The position numbers and the translations under genes are program-made. 32,220 bases of DNA from Chloroflexota bacterium (GTDB lineage Bacteria; Chloroflexota; Dehalococcoidia; GIF9; UBA5629). Where the stretch lies: the NCBI GenBank assembly GCA_026389715.1, contig JAPLHK010000034.1, positions 5,373-37,592 on the forward strand, given 5' to 3'. The notes below the pieces were generated by a model that did not search any database, was not told where the DNA came from, and worked only from the letters and a program-made list of their open reading frames with translations. Shown in pieces: positions 2,824 through 32,220 of this stretch; position 1 is the first letter of the stretch; the number at the start of each line of letters is the position of its first letter.

Positions 2824-3294
2824 ATGGCAGTGTTCGTATTGACAGACGGATTAAAAAAACTTATTGGAACCGCTGAGCCGCCTTTGCTTTATAAGATTGA
2901 AGAAGGCTCTATCCAGCGATTTGCCAGGGCTGTCGGTGACTCCAACCCCATGCATAACGATGTGGAATTCGCCGCACAGAGCGAATTTGGCAGGCTTAAA
3001 GCGCCGCCCTCATTTACCGGTTGGCCTGTTACCAGCGGTTTTGATATGTTCCAATTTGTGGAGAAGCTCATCGCCGCCGGTGCACCGCGGGGGAACCTGG
3101 ATGGGAGCGTTGAATATGAATTCAAGGCGCCCATTGGCGCCGGTGATATGCTGGTTGCCGTTATCAAAATTGCCAATATCGAGGGCAAGGAAACCAGGAT
3201 GGGGCCCACCATGGTTACCACCTTGGAAACGACCTATACTAATCAGCGCGGAGAGGTGGCGCTGATCGCCAGGAACCAGTTTCTGAGTTTTTGA
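2824..3294 (+). CDS. MaoC N-terminal-type (FAS1-like) dehydratase, paralog 2
   Basis: 156 aa, same length as 1739..2209 and about 69% identical by hand count; gaggaaacctgaaATG. Confidence 0.8.
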   Translation: MAVFVLTDGLKKLIGTAEPPLLYKIEEGSIQRFARAVGDSNPMHNDVEFAAQSEFGRLKAPPSFTGWPVTSGFDMFQFVEKLIAAGAPRGNLDGSVEYEFKAPIGAGDMLVAVIKIANIEGKETRMGPTMVTTLETTYTNQRGEVALIARNQFLSF

Positions 3295-5236: not shown

Positions 5237-6766
5237 ATGGCGAAATACATAATTGCTCACGATGTCGGTACCACTAACAATAAGGCTGTTCTGGTGGGTG
5301 TGGGGGGGGAAGTCCACGGCAAGGTACTTCATCCATACGATATTAACTATCCCCGGCCAGGTTGGGCGGAGCAAGATCCTGAAGATTGGTGGAGCGCTGT
5401 AACCAGTAGCACCAGGCAACTTCTTTCAGAAACCGGAGTGTCGCCTGCGGATATTTTATGCCTCACATTTTCCACTCAAATGCTTGGCATTGTGCCAATG
5501 GATGAAAATGGGGTGGCTTTAAGGCAGGGGATTATCTGGATGGATAACAGGGCGGCTGAAGAGGCTAAATTTGTGATGAACAAATTTCTGGGCCCTTCGA
5601 TATTTGCTGCCATAGCGGGTGCGGAGATCGGCGGGAAGGATGCAATGCCTAAACTCCTCTGGATCAAAAATAACGAGCCCGAAACCTATAGGAAAATGAA
5701 GTTATTTCTGGATCTAAATGGTTACCTGAAATACCGTTGTACCGGCAGTATGTCCATGGACTGGAACAACGCCTCGGGTTTTGGCCTGGACTTAAAGAAA
5801 AAGGATTGGCTGAGAAGTATTTTTGGGTATGTCGGATTTGATACAGCGAAATTGCCGCCGCTAACACGCTCTATTGACAAAATTGGCAGCTTGACGAAAG
5901 AGGCTGCGGCGCAGTTCGGACTGCTTGAGGGCACGCCTGTGATGGGTGGAGCCGGAGATACGGCCTCTGCGGCCGTTGGTTCAGGCGCAGTGGGAGAGGG
6001 AGATGGCCACATAAGCATTGGGACGTCGGCCTGGGTTGGGGTTGTTACGCGGAAGACCCCGACCGGGAAAAATGGTGTCGCGGCCATCCAGTCGGCCGAT
6101 CCGGATAAAGCACTGCTCCTGGCTCAGATGGAAACGGCCGGCGGCTGCCTTAAATGGTTGGGCGAACAGGTATGCAGGACCGAGAGTGCCGATGCCACTA
6201 TTGCCAATATATATGGCTTTATGGACAGCAGGGTGATGGAAGTGCCTGCAGGTTCGGACTACCTCATATTTATGCCATGGATGTACGGAGAAAGAACGCC
6301 GATCTCCGACACCTACATACGGTCAGGATTCTTGAATCTCACACCCGAGCATACACGCGAACATCTGCTGCGCGGCGTATATGAGGGTGTGGCTTATAAT
6401 ATCCGCTGGATAATCGAAAGGGTGGAAAAGGAATATAAATTTCCATTACCCTCGCTCAGGGTAATTGGAGGCGGAGCTCTGGGCCATCCCTGGATGCAAA
6501 TTATCGCCGATGTTACGGGCAAGATAATAGAACCGGTGCGTAATGCCCAGGAGGCAGGGGCGGTGGGAGTGGCAATGGCAGCAGCGGTGGGGCTTGGTAT
6601 ATACAAGGATTTTGAGTCGTTGAAAAAAGTGGTTGGAGTCGCATATACTTTTAAACCTCAGGCCAAGAACCGTGAGGTTTATGATTTCCTTTACCGTTCC
6701 TATAAGGAGTTGTATCCCGATTTGAAGGGATTTTACGAGAGGATAAATAAAGCGAGGTGTAGTTAA
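5237..6766 (+). CDS. FGGY-family carbohydrate kinase (xylulokinase-like)
   Basis: 509 aa; HDVGTTNNKAVLV N-terminal phosphate-1 motif, WAEQDPEDWW, GGAGDTASAAVGSGA, RVIGGGALGHPWMQIIADVTG. Confidence 0.92.
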   Translation: MAKYIIAHDVGTTNNKAVLVGVGGEVHGKVLHPYDINYPRPGWAEQDPEDWWSAVTSSTRQLLSETGVSPADILCLTFSTQMLGIVPMDENGVALRQGIIWMDNRAAEEAKFVMNKFLGPSIFAAIAGAEIGGKDAMPKLLWIKNNEPETYRKMKLFLDLNGYLKYRCTGSMSMDWNNASGFGLDLKKKDWLRSIFGYVGFDTAKLPPLTRSIDKIGSLTKEAAAQFGLLEGTPVMGGAGDTASAAVGSGAVGEGDGHISIGTSAWVGVVTRKTPTGKNGVAAIQSADPDKALLLAQMETAGGCLKWLGEQVCRTESADATIANIYGFMDSRVMEVPAGSDYLIFMPWMYGERTPISDTYIRSGFLNLTPEHTREHLLRGVYEGVAYNIRWIIERVEKEYKFPLPSLRVIGGGALGHPWMQIIADVTGKIIEPVRNAQEAGAVGVAMAAAVGLGIYKDFESLKKVVGVAYTFKPQAKNREVYDFLYRSYKELYPDLKGFYERINKARCS

Positions 6767-6833: not shown

Positions 6834-7508
6834 TTAGGCTGGTGTACTTATGGCAGGGTAAATATATACCCCGGAGGGCTCCATTTCCGAATAGCTTTCA
6901 GGAGTCAGTTCGACGAGGGTAACATGTGCCAGGCAAAAAATCAGCAGTTCACGCACCGTATAACGCTCCAGAATAGAATGATAGATTTGTCCTTCCAGAA
7001 GAAGAGATACAAACCCGTGGACAGTACTCCATACACTTATGGCTTCCACATCTGCCGGCCCGGGGCGTAGCACGCCTGCGGCCTGGCACGTCTCGACTAT
7101 CCGGACGACCATCCCAAAGCCTTTGTGAGACATCTCAACGAACGCGGGATAGTCTTTCTCCCTCTCCAGTACGCTGGATAAGGTCACCTTGAAATGTGCC
7201 GGGTCACTGAGTGCGAACTGGACGTACGCCCAGGCGGCTTCCACCAATTGCCTGAGAGGTTTGCCCTGATAACGCTGAATTACGCCATCCAACAGTTCAT
7301 ATATTGTCCGGAAGCCTTCTATCGAGATGGCGGCTATAAGCGACTGCCTGTCGGCAAAGTGCGAGTAGGGTGCCGTGTGACTGACGCCTGCTTTCTGTGC
7401 CACTTTACGCAGGCTAAGGCCGTGAACGCCCTCTTTGGAGAGGATCTCAATCCCTGCCTTAATCAGTGCATTCTTTAGGTCGCCGTGATGATATTTTTTG
7501 GCGGGCAT
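6834..7508 (-). CDS. TetR/AcrR-family transcriptional regulator
   Basis: HTH KYHHGDLKNALIKAGIEILSKEGVHGLSLRKVAQKAGVSHTAPYSHFADRQSLIAAI; ORF opens earlier but the likely start is ATG at 7508. Confidence 0.9.
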   Translation of the reverse strand: MPAKKYHHGDLKNALIKAGIEILSKEGVHGLSLRKVAQKAGVSHTAPYSHFADRQSLIAAISIEGFRTIYELLDGVIQRYQGKPLRQLVEAAWAYVQFALSDPAHFKVTLSSVLEREKDYPAFVEMSHKGFGMVVRIVETCQAAGVLRPGPADVEAISVWSTVHGFVSLLLEGQIYHSILERYTVRELLIFCLAHVTLVELTPESYSEMEPSGVYIYPAISTPA

Positions 7509-7514
7509 GAGATA

Positions 7515-7543
7515 ATAGTACTGTCTAATCTTGACAGCGTCAA
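7515..7543 (-). promoter_or_regulatory. Promoter of the TetR gene: TTGACG-N17-TACTAT (minus strand)
   Basis: -35 at 7543-7538, -10 at 7520-7515, exact 17-nt spacer; -10 ends 6 nt before the ATG. Confidence 0.6.
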
Positions 7544-7547
7544 GATT
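7527..7547. promoter_or_regulatory. Putative TetR operator: AATCTTGAC-AGC-GTCAAGATT
   Basis: Perfect 9-bp inverted repeat, 3-bp centre, overlapping the -35 element and spacer of the tetR promoter. Confidence 0.7.
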
Positions 7548-7853
7548 GCGATTTATAATCCTGATATTGTAAAGTTGAAACTTGGAAGTGAAGTATGGGG
7601 CAATTTGGCCCTGATAAATGGCCAATCGTTGAGACTGCGCAAAACCTTATTGCCAGAGGTAATCTCATGGTAATAGCGGGAACTTTACGGTACGGATTTC
7701 GAAAAAAGGAAGTCTTTGCCATTTCTATGTCCGGTTGCCAGGGTTACGTCGATCACTTATATGTTGAAGTGTAGGTGGGTCTGTAGCGATGTTGCGAAAG
7801 GCCAAACAAATTAACGTGTGATTAAGCTAAAGTATAAAATAGGAGGAACATAA

Positions 7854-9167
7854 ATGACGAATGATGAGATGTTAAGCCAACCTGTAGCATTGCCGGATGG
7901 GATTGACTACGATGATTACATCATCGGTACCTACATCGTCACATCCCCGGCCATGTTTCCCATGCCCAAGCTGGCGCCGATGCTGGCCATTGAGCAAAGC
8001 ACAGGGACCTGGGTGCCAGTTCCTGGTGAGACCCCGGAAGTGCGCAGGCGCCATGTGGCGAAGGTAATTGGCTGTTATGAGATACCTGATTACGAGTATA
8101 GTATTCCTGCCGACGTTAAGGACAGAAATTGGTTCGTGCAAATAGCCTTTCCTGTGGTGAATGTTGGATCGCAAATACCTATGATGCTAACCACCGTTGT
8201 GGGCAATATATCTATGGCAGGCCCGATAAAACTGGTTGACATAAGATTTCCTAAGAAATACGTCGCCGGGTTCCAGGGTCCCAAGTTCGGAATTGATGGG
8301 ATCAGGAAACTCCTGGGAGTTAAGAAGAGGCCGTTATTGAACAACATGGTTAAACCGTGTACAGGCTATCCACTGGAGGTGGGGGCCGAGTTGTTCAGGC
8401 TTGCCGCGTTGGGTGGTTGCGACATAGTTAAGGATGACGAGCTGATCGCGGATGCTTCCTTTAACTCGATCAAAGGCCGTGTTAAGCGATACATGGAAAT
8501 TGAAAAGCAGGTTTTCGAGGAGACGGGAGAGCGCACACTCTACACGGTCAATGTCACCGATTCGGTGCCGAAAGTATTCGAAAATGCCAGGCGTGCGGTG
8601 GAATTGGGTGCCAACGCTATCATGGTCAACTATATTGCTGTTGGAATTCCGGTCTTACAGGCGCTTGCAGAGGACCCGAAAATAGGCGTCCCCATTCTAG
8701 GGCATATGGATGTAGCAGGAGCGCTGTACATGTCTCCTATGCACGGGATGAGCTCTCACCTGGTACTTGGTAAACTTGCACGGCTGGCAGGCGCCGACAT
8801 AGTCGTCATTCCCGCTCCTTACGGGAAAGCCTCGGTCATTGTCGAGAAGTTCGATTCTGTGGCCAGAAATCTGACGTATCCTTTATATCAGCTTAAACCG
8901 ACGTGGCCAATGGCATCCGGTGGTATTACCCCGACACATGTGCCCAAAGTGATGCAGGAGCTTGGGAATGATATCGTAATTGGATCGGGTGGGGGAATTC
9001 ATGCTCACCCGCTGGGTCCTGTAGCAGGCGGGAAGGCCTTCAGACAGGCGATTGATGCCACGCTCAAGGGTATTTCTCTTGAGGAATACTCCAAGACACA
9101 TAAAGAACTTGCAGCTTCGGTCAAACAATGGGCCGATCCATTCAAGGCGTTCAAGAAAGAAGCATAA
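7854..9167 (+). CDS. RuBisCO-like protein (Form IV-type RLP)
   Basis: 437 aa; EQSTGTW, VVGN, MVKP, GGCDIVKDDEL, ASGGI and SGGGIHAHPLG align to RuBisCO large-subunit motifs; SD aggagga. Confidence 0.9.
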   Translation: MTNDEMLSQPVALPDGIDYDDYIIGTYIVTSPAMFPMPKLAPMLAIEQSTGTWVPVPGETPEVRRRHVAKVIGCYEIPDYEYSIPADVKDRNWFVQIAFPVVNVGSQIPMMLTTVVGNISMAGPIKLVDIRFPKKYVAGFQGPKFGIDGIRKLLGVKKRPLLNNMVKPCTGYPLEVGAELFRLAALGGCDIVKDDELIADASFNSIKGRVKRYMEIEKQVFEETGERTLYTVNVTDSVPKVFENARRAVELGANAIMVNYIAVGIPVLQALAEDPKIGVPILGHMDVAGALYMSPMHGMSSHLVLGKLARLAGADIVVIPAPYGKASVIVEKFDSVARNLTYPLYQLKPTWPMASGGITPTHVPKVMQELGNDIVIGSGGGIHAHPLGPVAGGKAFRQAIDATLKGISLEEYSKTHKELAASVKQWADPFKAFKKEA

Positions 9168-27765: not shown

Positions 27766-30700
27766 TCACTTTATATCGGAGTGGTAGCTCTGTAACGACT
27801 TGACCGACGGCTTGCCCTTCTGAAAAGCTGCTATACCTTTGGCCGCAGCCGATGCCGCTGCCAGCGTGGTGATGTAGGTTACCTTGTACTGGATAGCTGC
27901 CTTGCGTATATAGGAGTCGTCATACAAGCTCAGTTTGCCGCTGGGGGTATTGATGACAAGGTTGATTTCGCCGTTCTTAATGGCGTCGACGATATTGGGC
28001 CGGCCCTCGTGTTGCTTGTTGATAATGTCCGATTTAATCCCGTTCCGGGCCAGGAATTCGTGGGTACCCCGGGTTGCCCGGATACTGAAACCAAGATTCT
28101 GGAATTGTGTGGCTACGTCAAGCGAAATCGGCATCTCTTTACTGAATAAACTCAGCAGGACGGTGCCTCGTTCCGGGAGGCGTTGCCTGGCCGCTTCCTG
28201 TGCCTTGTAAAAAGCCATCCCGAAGGAATCAGCCATACCTAATACTTCACCCGTCGAGCGCATTTCCGGCCCCAGGACAGGGTCAACTTCAGGGAACATA
28301 TTGAAGGGGAACACGGCTTCTTTTACACCGTAATGGGGTATAGGCCGCTGTGTCAGCTTGAGGTTGCGCAATTTCTTGCCCATAATCAACTGAGTGGCTA
28401 TGCGGGCCATTGAGACATTGCACACTTTTGACACGAGGGGTACAGTGCGCGATGCCCGCGGATTGGCTTCGAGCACGTAGACCACGTCTTTGGCGATAGC
28501 ATATTGCATATTCATCAGGCCTACAACGTTCAGTTCCCGGGCTATCCTACTGGTATACTCGTTGATCGTTTTAATGTGCTTATCCTGTATGGTTAAAGGC
28601 GGGATAATGCAGGAAGAGTCCCCTGAATGAATCCCTGCGAGTTCGATATGCTCCATTATGGCCGGCACAAAAGCGTCTGTGCCGTCAGCGATTGCGTCAG
28701 CTTCGGCCTCGATAGCGTTTTCCAGGAATTTGTCGATAAGAATGGGACGGTCAGGGGTGACGCCGGCCGCTGCGTCTACATACTCGCGCAGTGTGTCCTC
28801 GTCGTAGACCACCTGCATACCCCTGCCTCCCAGGACGTATGATGGCCTAACCATCAGGGGATAGCCTATCTTCCCGGCTACCTGCAGGGCCTCTTCGATA
28901 TTTATGGCCATTCCGGACGCCGGCATAGGTATATTCATCTTAATCATCATATCGCGGAACCTGCCCCTGTCTTCGGCCAGGTCGATTGTTTCAGGGGAAG
29001 TGCCCAGTATTTTTACGCCGGATTTGTACAACTCAGCGGCGATGTTAAGGGGGGTCTGTCCGCCGAACTGCACAATGACACCCTCCGGTTTTTCTTTATC
29101 ATAGATGCTTAACACATCCTCAACGGTGAGGGGTTCAAAATACAGTTTATCAGACGTGTCGTAATCGGTAGATACGGTTTCAGGATTGCAGTTCACCACA
29201 ATCGTTTCGTATCCTTCGTCACGCAGGGTGAAGGCGGCGTGGACGCAGCAATAATCGAATTCTATGCCCTGGCCGATACGGTTGGGGCCCCCGCCCAATA
29301 CCATGACTTTTTTTCGACTGCTGCTGATGGTTTTATCCGGCGCGTTATAAGTTGAAAAGTAGTACGCCGCGTTTTCCACGCCGCTGACCGGTACAGGCTC
29401 CCAGGACTCTTTCATGCCCAGGGATAACCGCTTTTGCCGGATATCGCTCTCCGTTACACCCACTAATTGCGAGAGATATTTATCAGAGAAACCGTCCCGC
29501 TTGGCCTTTTTCAGCAGCTCATCCGGCAATGATTTATTCTTGAAAACAAGTATCTCTTCCTCGAGTTCAACGAGCTCCTTCATCTGCTGGATGAACCATG
29601 GTTTGATAAACGTGATTTCATAGAGTGTTTGCACTTCGGCGCCTTTGCGCAGAGCCTCGTACATTACGAATTGGCGCTCGCTTGAGGGTTCCCTCAGCAT
29701 TGCCATAAGTTCGTCAAGTGGCTTTGTATTAAAATCTCTGGCGAAACCGAGTCCGAAGCGGCCGGTTTCAAGTGAACGGATCGATTTTTGCAGCGCTTCT
29801 TTATAGTTCTTACCTATGCTCATAACTTCGCCGACCGCGCGCATCTGTGTGCCGAGTTTGTCTTCGGCATCCTTGAATTTCTCAAATGCCCAGCGGGCGA
29901 ATTTTACCACCACGTATTCTCCCGACGGCGTATATTTTTCCAGGGTGCCGTCGCGCCAATAAGGGATTTCATCCATGGTTAAACCGGCCGCGAGTTTAGA
30001 GGAGATCAGCGCAATGGGGAAACCCGTTGCCTTGGATGCCAGGGCCGATGAACGGGATGTCCTCGGGTTGATCTCAATCACCACCACGCGGCCTGTCTTA
30101 GGTTCGTGTGCAAATTGTATGTTGGTACCGCCGATCACGCGTATGGCCTCGACTATTTTGTATGAGTAATCCTGCAGCCGTTTCTGAAGCCTGGCATCTA
30201 TCGTCAGCATGGGAGCCACGCAAAAGGAATCACCGGTATGTACACCCATAGCGTCAATATTTTCGATGAAACAGACCGTGATCATCTGGTTCTTTGCATC
30301 ACGTACAACTTCAAGCTCGAGTTCCTCCCAGCCGAGCACCGACTCTTCAATGAGCACCTGACCGATAAGGCTGGCTGCAATGCCTCTTCCAGCGATCGTC
30401 CGCAGTTCCTCTACGTTATAAACCAGTCCTCCACCAGTCCCTCCCATCGTATAGGCGGGCCTGACAACGACGGGGTAGCCAAGCTCGGAGGCAACGTGTT
30501 CGGCCTCCTCGACTGAGTAGACAGCTTCGCTTTTGGGCATTTCAATGCCCAGGCGGTTCATGGTCTCCTTAAAGGCGATCCTGTCTTCCCCGCTGCGGAT
30601 AGCGTCCACGTCGACGCCTATTACCTCCACGCCGTATTTATCAAGGATGCCTTCCTTGGCCAGTTCAGAGCTTAAATTAAGCCCGGATTGCCCGCCCAGG

Positions 30701-30966
30701 TTGGGCAGCAGGGCATCCGGCCGTTCCTTTTCGATTATCTTGGCCATCATTTCTACAGTCAGCGGTTCCAGGTAGGTGATATGTGCCATGCCGGGATCGG
30801 TCATGATTGTGGCTGGGTTAGAGTTGACCAGGACGATCTCATAGCCAAGGCCTTTGAGGGCTTTGCATGCCTGCGTGCCGGAATAATCAAATTCGCAGGC
30901 CTGCCCGATGATAATCGGGCCTGACCCAATTATCATGATTTTCTTGATGTCGTTTCTTTTCGACAA
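27766..30966 (-). CDS. carB: Carbamoyl-phosphate synthase large subunit, complete copy
   Basis: 1066 aa with both ATP-grasp halves, GSGPIIIGQACEFDYSGTQACKAL, GGGPNRIGQGIEFDYCCVHA, C-terminal MGS domain. Confidence 0.97.
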   Translation of the reverse strand: MSKRNDIKKIMIIGSGPIIIGQACEFDYSGTQACKALKGLGYEIVLVNSNPATIMTDPGMAHITYLEPLTVEMMAKIIEKERPDALLPNLGGQSGLNLSSELAKEGILDKYGVEVIGVDVDAIRSGEDRIAFKETMNRLGIEMPKSEAVYSVEEAEHVASELGYPVVVRPAYTMGGTGGGLVYNVEELRTIAGRGIAASLIGQVLIEESVLGWEELELEVVRDAKNQMITVCFIENIDAMGVHTGDSFCVAPMLTIDARLQKRLQDYSYKIVEAIRVIGGTNIQFAHEPKTGRVVVIEINPRTSRSSALASKATGFPIALISSKLAAGLTMDEIPYWRDGTLEKYTPSGEYVVVKFARWAFEKFKDAEDKLGTQMRAVGEVMSIGKNYKEALQKSIRSLETGRFGLGFARDFNTKPLDELMAMLREPSSERQFVMYEALRKGAEVQTLYEITFIKPWFIQQMKELVELEEEILVFKNKSLPDELLKKAKRDGFSDKYLSQLVGVTESDIRQKRLSLGMKESWEPVPVSGVENAAYYFSTYNAPDKTISSSRKKVMVLGGGPNRIGQGIEFDYCCVHAAFTLRDEGYETIVVNCNPETVSTDYDTSDKLYFEPLTVEDVLSIYDKEKPEGVIVQFGGQTPLNIAAELYKSGVKILGTSPETIDLAEDRGRFRDMMIKMNIPMPASGMAINIEEALQVAGKIGYPLMVRPSYVLGGRGMQVVYDEDTLREYVDAAAGVTPDRPILIDKFLENAIEAEADAIADGTDAFVPAIMEHIELAGIHSGDSSCIIPPLTIQDKHIKTINEYTSRIARELNVVGLMNMQYAIAKDVVYVLEANPRASRTVPLVSKVCNVSMARIATQLIMGKKLRNLKLTQRPIPHYGVKEAVFPFNMFPEVDPVLGPEMRSTGEVLGMADSFGMAFYKAQEAARQRLPERGTVLLSLFSKEMPISLDVATQFQNLGFSIRATRGTHEFLARNGIKSDIINKQHEGRPNIVDAIKNGEINLVINTPSGKLSLYDDSYIRKAAIQYKVTYITTLAAASAAAKGIAAFQKGKPSVKSLQSYHSDIK

Positions 30967-30989
30967 AGCATTCCTCCCTGTATCTTATA

Positions 30990-32220
30990 TCAGCTCAGGT
31001 ATTCATTAACCGGTTTTACGTTGTATAATCCCTTTCCCTTGGTCAACGCCTTGAGAGCTGCCCTGGCGGTATCCAACGATGTAAAGCACGGGACGCGCCT
31101 TTCCACCGCGGCGCGGCGGATGTGGAATCCATCCTGTAGCGCGATCCTCCCGCCGGTTATCGTATTCACAATTCCCACCAGGGAACCCGCGTTGATTATA
31201 TCTATTATGTTTGGGCTGCCCTGGCTCAGTTTCTTCTCTATAGTAGTGACTTCCATCCCATTGTTTTGGATAAATGCCCCGGTGCCTTCCGTGGCATATA
31301 ATTGGTATCCTAATGACGAGAAGCCTTTTATTATAGGTAGCGCTTCTTTTTTATTTTTGTCGGCGATGCTAAAAAGCAACCCGCCTCCCGGCGGAAGTAT
31401 AAGACCCGCTGCTATCAGTGCTTTAACCATGGCCCCTTCGAAATTATGGTCGATGCCCATAACCTCCCCGGTCGATTTCATCTCCGGGCCAAGATATGTA
31501 TCCACACCGACCAGCTTTGACATTGAGAACACCGGTGCTTTGATGCCCACCAGCCTTTGTTTTCTAAAGAGGCCGGTTCTGTATCCCTGCTCTTGTAAAC
31601 TAATTCCCAGCATAACCTTGGTAGCTATACGCACCATGGGGATGCCCGTAACCTTGGAGATAAAAGGGATAGTCCTGCTGGCGCGCGGATTAACTTCAAT
31701 CACGTAGACAGATGATTCAGAGTTATTTTCGCCCGGCATGATAACGAACTGTACGTTCATTAATCCTCTGACCCGCAGGCCTAAAGCCATCCTGATAGTA
31801 TAATCTACCAGGGTATCCACTTCCCTCGCCGATAAATTCAGGCCGGGGTAAACAGCTATTGAATCACCGCTGTGCACCCCTGCCCTTTCGATATGCTCCA
31901 TAACCCCGGGTATCAGCACGTCAACTCCATCGCAGATGGCATCAACCTCCACTTCTTTGCCCTCGAAGTATTTGTCGATCAATATCGGGCGACCACTGCC
32001 GAGATCCAGGGCCCGTTCCATATACTTGGATAATTCCTCATCGTTGTTGACAATTTCCATGGCCTGGCCGCCCAGCACATAGCTCGGCCTGACCAACACC
32101 GGGTATTTCAATGTAGCGGCGGTGCTCACCGCTTCTTTCAGGGAGGTAACCCCGGCGCCGGGCGGTTGCGGTATGCCCAGCCCGTTTAAAAAACTTTCAA
32201 ATCTCCGGCGGTCTTCTGCG
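30990..32220 (-). CDS. carB: Second carbamoyl-phosphate synthase large subunit gene, C-terminal half; continues past the window edge
   Basis: Frame stays open to 32220 (AEDRRRFESFLNGLGIPQPPGAGVTSLKEAVSTAATLKYPVLVRPSYVLGG); 23-nt gap to the complete carB. Confidence 0.93.
   Translation of the reverse strand, partial: AEDRRRFESFLNGLGIPQPPGAGVTSLKEAVSTAATLKYPVLVRPSYVLGGQAMEIVNNDEELSKYMERALDLGSGRPILIDKYFEGKEVEVDAICDGVDVLIPGVMEHIERAGVHSGDSIAVYPGLNLSAREVDTLVDYTIRMALGLRVRGLMNVQFVIMPGENNSESSVYVIEVNPRASRTIPFISKVTGIPMVRIATKVMLGISLQEQGYRTGLFRKQRLVGIKAPVFSMSKLVGVDTYLGPEMKSTGEVMGIDHNFEGAMVKALIAAGLILPPGGGLLFSIADKNKKEALPIIKGFSSLGYQLYATEGTGAFIQNNGMEVTTIEKKLSQGSPNIIDIINAGSLVGIVNTITGGRIALQDGFHIRRAAVERRVPCFTSLDTARAALKALTKGKGLYNVKPVNEYLS

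Follow-up and report, generated by a model that had tools for sequence, protein, structure and literature searches.

The window, that is, the whole stretch of DNA analysed (32,220 nucleotides of a contig from a Dehalococcoidia genome, phylum Chloroflexota), carries a gene for a RuBisCO-like protein (RLP) accompanied by genes for a carbohydrate kinase, a repressor and an aminotransferase. The features of this locus are the following:

5237–6766, forward strand: FGGY carbohydrate kinase, the conserved operon partner of the RLP (Pfam FGGY_N/C)
6834–7508, reverse strand: TetR-family repressor, divergent from the RLP gene (Pfam TetR_N, TetR_C_33)
7527–7547, no strand assigned: perfect palindrome of 21 nt, AATCTTGAC-agc-GTCAAGATT, a putative operator for TetR over the -35 box (sequence)
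7531–7559, forward strand: consensus sigma-70 promoter TTGACA-17-TATAAT (12/12), directed toward the RLP gene (sequence)
7854–9167, forward strand: RLP gene of the FGGY-linked RLP clade, intact open reading frame of 437 amino acids
9330–10784, forward strand: class-III PLP aminotransferase (AT3) resembling GSA aminomutase, separated from the RLP gene by 162 bp (Pfam Aminotran_3)

The product of 7854–9167 matched both RuBisCO large-chain Pfam domains, RuBisCO_large (PF00016, 163 bits) and RuBisCO_large_N (PF02788, 37 bits). The comparison with MtnW structures proposed in a preliminary description of this DNA was carried out at the level of the whole fold, and by sequence as well. With an AF2 model of mean pLDDT 86.5 and pTM 0.88, the top PDB folds detected by Foldseek were those of MtnW (2oej, 2oek and 2oem; TM 0.85–0.87/0.91–0.93, the highest being the target-normalised value to 2oem), with the Chlorobium RLP and form III RuBisCO next in rank. 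The large-chain fold, the presence of both domains (Pfam, Foldseek) and the substitution of 4 of the 19 classical active-site residues place the protein in form IV. Its dN/dS with respect to the orthologue in locus L003 was about 0.07 (dS 0.148, dN 0.0105), which at the sequence level means that the gene is under strong purifying selection.

The active site was described by alignment with spinach RbcL (a reference checked at the 19 expected positions), about 45 form III RuBisCOs from archaea and four chains of MtnW type whose structures are solved. At the 19 classical positions the RLP reads E T W N K C K D E H M V K A S G G G G; 15 residues are retained and four are lost (K177C, R295M, H327V and L335A). 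In spinach numbering, the positions correspond as follows:

7992–8012, forward strand: E47 and T52-W53, equivalent to E60 and T65/W66, kept; P1 phosphate side, E60 pairing with K334 (alignments)
8205–8207, forward strand: N118, equivalent to N123, kept; K in MtnW (alignments)
8352–8360, forward strand: K167-P-C169, equivalent to K175 (kept) and K177 (lost, Cys) (alignments)
8430–8441, forward strand: K193-D-D195-E196, the carbamate/Mg site K201/D203/E204, kept (alignments)
8703–8708, forward strand: H284, equivalent to H294, kept, and M285, equivalent to R295, a lost P2 ligand (alignments, model strand)
8805–8807, forward strand: V318, equivalent to H327, a lost P2 ligand (alignments)
8826–8831, forward strand: K325-A326, equivalent to loop-6 K334 (kept) and L335 (lost) (alignments)
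8916–8993, forward strand: S355-G356-G357 and G379-G380, equivalent to S379/G380/G381 and G403/G404, kept (alignments)

Every residue named beforehand as retained was recovered in the alignment (E60/T65/W66, N123, K175, K201/D203/E204, K334, S379/G380/G381 and G403/G404), and so were the replacements of K177 by C169 and of H327 by V318; that of L335 by A326 had been overlooked. The segment holding H294 and R295 had been described as lost, which proved right for R295 (M285) and wrong for H294: the stretch ILGHMDVAG pairs gap-free with LHIHRAMHA, H284 does not vary in any of the 28 rows of alignment A1, which include form III, and the barrel strand E281–284 of the AF2 model ends at H284. Considering that H294, K175, K334, E60 and N123 are all present, the statement that key catalytic residues are lost was too strong, while the retention of the carbamylation/Mg site is borne out by an intact KDDE. 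Judging from secondary structure, K167, K193/D195/E196, H284, V318/K325, S355 and G379/G380 would lie in or just after barrel strands, which fits an active site. As read from the alignments, the P2 phosphate grip is absent, and the P1 site, the carbamate/Mg site, E60, N123, K175, H294 and K334 are present; hydrophobic residues (M285, V318 and A326) line the far end of the pocket. The change in phosphate-binding mode that had been suggested agrees with this, the P2 ligands R295 and H327 being gone and the P1-site residues staying, and metal-dependent enolisation, also suggested, is the most natural reading of an intact Mg site with P1 kept and both P2 ligands gone. As for the proposed absence of CO2 fixation, it is plausible for RuBP, as the missing P2 site speaks against carboxylation of that substrate; the residues themselves do not show it, as the E60/K334 pair, lost in MtnW, is intact.

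The 19-residue signature, ETWNKCKDEHMVKASGGGG, was identical in 37 aligned members of the clade, window included (L027 without the first three positions), from Chloroflexota, Actinomycetota, Desulfobacterota (Desulfatitalea and a close relative) and Asgard archaea, and it was also present in 26 of 30 additional Asgard loci. Chance is thus ruled out as the source of the residue pattern, given its identity across these aligned sequences. In the window the signature is combined with an upstream FGGY kinase gene, the two marks of the proposed FGGY-linked clade. In a 63-row tree, which leaves out the R. rubrum (Deep-Ykr) RLP, Rru_A1998, the clade formed a single branch (support 100/99, grouped in 100% of the bootstrap trees), and neither MtnW nor the acid-sugar RLPs nor RuBisCO fell within it. 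The bacterial members clustered together (99/96) among Asgard lineages, a topology consistent with inter-domain transfer in either direction. Matches were found in 21 of 294 Dehalococcoidia genomes, 16 of which carry this RLP with an identity of at least 74% (a count that includes the window genome and one broken copy), and in 102 of the 196 genomes of the Asgard phylum-level group (E ≤ 1e-90), mostly at 51–61% identity. This RLP is a member of a distinct, uncharacterised form IV subfamily; that membership, the residues and the genomic partners are what the data show directly. Other large-chain types were seen in the same class: L099 (genome G042) has another RLP type, with E at 123, R295 kept and 15/19, and L101 (G004) has a form I-like RuBisCO with 19/19.

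In almost every bacterial RLP locus the gene immediately upstream, in the same orientation, is an FGGY gene, at distances from -22 to a few hundred bp, typically with an overlap of 4 bp; L002 and L006 are too short to show whether it precedes the RLP gene. One exception is L005, whose metagenome-assembled genome, STA_11, has a second, FGGY-linked RLP copy on another contig (L018). A second RLP fragment, linked to a TetR gene, was also found in G012 (L103). In the window and its nearest relatives the TetR gene stands between FGGY and RLP, the FGGY gene ending 1.1 kb upstream, and in the Desulfatitalea-type loci this place is taken by AT3. Among the Asgard loci, FGGY overlaps the RLP start in L220 and L221, an SDH-FGGY pair (SDH, saccharopine-dehydrogenase-like) lies within a few kb of the RLP in four others, and AT3 adjoins it in two genomes; in most of the sampled Asgard loci none of FGGY, SDH and AT3 was close to the RLP. 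In L238, L249 and L250, also Asgard, genes read from sequence as formate-THF ligase, FolD and formiminotransferase-like adjoin the RLP. Genomes often have two or more FGGY genes, and the partner of the RLP is then not always evident. The window kinase scored 335 bits against the XylB model, under the cut-off of 380. The only hint at the substrate from the FGGY sequence is that H78 of XylB gives way to other residues, most often L, I, Q or S (the E. coli XylB reference agrees with the 2itm alignment). A search of the available literature for an RLP paired with FGGY or xylulokinase found none. Related clusters occur elsewhere. A second FGGY-SDH pair is present on contig C70 of the window genome, G000 (L183:1-8813), followed by open reading frames for an SCP2-domain protein, an iron alcohol dehydrogenase and an aldehyde:ferredoxin oxidoreductase-like (AOR) protein, and in the Hodarchaeota/Heimdall-type L172 and L173 AOR and an acyl-CoA synthetase adjoin a similar SCP2-Fe-ADH-AT3-like-FGGY cluster.

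On the 3′ side of the bacterial RLP genes there was either SDH (PF03435/PF16653) or AT3. By genome content, 13 of 18 RLP genomes have SDH (at least 48% identity) and 6 have AT3 (at least 44%), the window genome alone having both. This near exclusivity, which is phylogenetically non-independent, suggests that SDH and AT3 are two routes for one carbonyl/amine step, the relatedness of the genomes weakening the statistics.

With respect to regulation, the promoter and the palindrome overlap each other between the TetR gene and the RLP gene, and the palindrome is largely conserved in L003, L004 and L005. The true start of the TetR gene is probably the internal ATG at 7508 and not the TTG at 7625: a start at 7625 would overlap promoter and palindrome, and the orthologue in L003 has 224 amino acids. 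In the lineage of the window the TetR repressor probably makes the RLP-aminotransferase unit inducible, and the layout of promoter and palindrome points to an inducible unit, probably catabolic.

In several phyla AT3 is found linked to FGGY, to RLP or to both. The arrangement FGGY-AT3-RLP occurs in Desulfatitalea and its close relative, one locus of this type having an MFS transporter and a TetR gene at the head of the operon. Modules of FGGY, class II aldolase and AT3 were found on one plasmid each of Burkholderia ambifaria and Butyrivibrio (AT3 67% and 60% identical, respectively), and two Clostridia have an AT3-aldolase-FGGY operon plus a separate set of MFS, RLP and HAD phosphatase genes. 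Class II aldolases of this kind cleave ketose-1-phosphates, which would place the phosphate beside the keto carbon, the position that the retained P1 site requires. By analogy with these modules, the product of the kinase is suggested to be a ketose-1-phosphate, as in the L-fuculose and L-rhamnulose pathways, where an FGGY kinase makes one for a class II aldolase; the same AT3 partner appears with FGGY and class II aldolase in Burkholderia and Butyrivibrio. Unlike in those pathways, the kinase is accompanied here by an RLP, with no adjacent aldolase gene. The position of phosphorylation is deduced solely from the P1 residues and from the modules that contain an aldolase. Taken together, the aldolase modules, the hydrophobic end of the pocket and the replacement of H78 favour a ketose-1-phosphate with an uncharged tail. 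The class II aldolase was also considered as a simple replacement of the RLP, and rejected because it is present in all 14 RLP genomes tested.

Taking these data into account, we consider it fairly probable that the RLP is a Mg-carbamate enolase or isomerase acting on a monophosphorylated ketose made by the FGGY kinase, in a pathway completed by AT3 or SDH. In this scheme the kinase would phosphorylate a ketose at the carbon beside the keto group, and the phosphate would be held in the retained P1 site (T52, W53, K325, G356, G357, G379 and G380), with the uncharged end of the substrate filling the space left by R295 and H327 (M285, V318, A326 and C169). Carbamylated K193, together with D195 and E196, would hold the Mg2+ on which the substrate is enolised, and K167, H284 and K325 may have acid/base roles or orient the enediolate. 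The product would be a shifted keto-sugar phosphate, formed by enolase or 1,3-isomerase chemistry; the carbonyl/amine step would correspond to the class-III aminotransferase or, alternatively, to the saccharopine-dehydrogenase-like enzyme, and the RLP product may be cleaved by a class II aldolase whose gene lies elsewhere in the genome. The RLP would probably rearrange a sugar phosphate rather than fix CO2.

Uncultured-microbe type IV RuBisCO is often assigned to methionine salvage by default (e.g. PMC7495880), and here too the enzyme could handle a SAM by-product, as a DK-MTP-1-P enolase (MtnW) or as a 5-methylthioribulose-1-phosphate isomerase of the R. rubrum type. MtnW of Bacillus and Geobacillus (PDB 2oek, 2zvi, 3fk4 and 4nas) is the best match in sequence and fold (about 37% identity), with a carbamate/Mg site, a P1-type phosphate site and uncharged residues at 295 and 327 as in the RLP, and a methylthio tail would suit the hydrophobic residues at the P2 end. 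The closest NCBIfam model is indeed DK-MTP-1-P enolase, but the scores stay below the MtnW equivalog cut-offs (377 versus 409 and 341 versus 514 bits), and MtnW has K123, S/T334, A380 and G at 60 where the RLP has N123 (N118), K334 (K325), G380 and E60. In place of MtnX and MtnB, whose operon is absent from the window, the neighbour of the clade is the FGGY kinase. MtnW-type genes beside MtnX-like and MtnB-like open reading frames (by sequence motif) do exist elsewhere in Dehalococcoidia (L117:6260-8804 and L119:6456-9172), and serve as an internal control for the comparison. The R. rubrum RLP (Deep-Ykr class), a precedent that acts on MTRu-1-P, resembles the chemistry proposed here, a keto shift in a ketose-1-phosphate (PMC4958253). 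In contrast, the genes known from its pathway, on which this comparison is based, are those of a nucleoside phosphorylase, an isomerase and a methylsulfurylase cupin, with no FGGY kinase. MTRu-1-P may be made in the window genome, where contig C36 has adjoining IF-2B/MtnA-family and PNP-family genes; a metK, ahcY and nucleoside kinase cluster lies beside the FGGY-RLP locus in L032 (163-3654, reverse strand), and ahcY is near that of another relative. Two other RLP genomes, one of them just 70% complete, gave no PNP-family match, and for this reason the salvage of MTA or 5′-deoxyadenosine was rejected as a general explanation. An FGGY kinase is not known to belong to either salvage pathway. A role in salvage is on balance rather unlikely.

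The enzyme could also handle CO2 as a (de)carboxylase of a monophosphorylated sugar or sugar acid, like OiaX on 3-oxo-isoapionate-4-phosphate: E60, N123, K175, the carbamate site, H294 and loop-6 K334 are all retained, and the OiaX-type acid-sugar RLPs likewise keep 15/19 and adjoin a kinase gene, a precedent, by analogy, for kinase-RLP pairs. However, their kinase is of the four-carbon acid sugar family, and they keep R295 and H327 and lose W66 and G380 (F66, S380), the opposite of the pattern found here, in a separate clade. Alphaproteobacterial searches returned OiaX-like RLPs, other RLPs and RuBisCOs; against the OiaX cut-off of 700 bits the RLP scored 195, the OiaX-like genes found there also being all under 700. 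We regard this function as unlikely, and decidedly doubtful the proposal that the clade, in about half of the Asgard genomes, is CO2-dependent and (de)carboxylates the enediolate of an FGGY-made ketose phosphate without a second phosphate site. A genuine RuBisCO with altered RuBP binding might be thought of from the fold, the 15/19 residues and the roughly 36% identity shared with archaeal form III RuBisCO, but form III keeps K177, R295 and H327, hence both phosphate sites, whereas the second-phosphate ligands R295 and H327 are lost invariantly across the clade. The residues of forms I–III are replaced in R295M, H327V, K177C and L335A, the clade branches outside the form I/III group (100/99) and the TIGR03326 score is 254 against a cut-off of 497, which makes this extremely improbable. 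A loss of CO2 chemistry is likely. A non-catalytic regulatory or stress protein could be imagined, as some RLPs have no known reaction and many Asgard loci have no conserved partner; it is very unlikely in view of the catalytic lysines and Mg ligands retained across two domains of life, the dN/dS of about 0.07 and the operon shared with metabolic enzymes.

Returning to the ketose phosphate enolase or isomerase, about half of the sampled Asgard genomes carry an RLP subfamily that fails the MtnW tests and has conserved partners of its own, and the pathway it offers is concrete and testable: kinase, RLP, and aminotransferase or dehydrogenase. A RuBisCO catalytic core in which mainly the P2 phosphate grip is replaced also bears on the origin of bisphosphate specificity and of carboxylation.

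Two other groups of genes in the window are worth recording. A full-length carbamoyl-phosphate synthase large chain gene lies beside a CarB-C-terminal-like open reading frame of 379 amino acids (27766–32129, reverse strand; sequence reading), and two similar MaoC/FAS1-like dehydratase genes (1739–2209 and 2824–3294) stand around a third one in a thiolase/OB-fold cluster.
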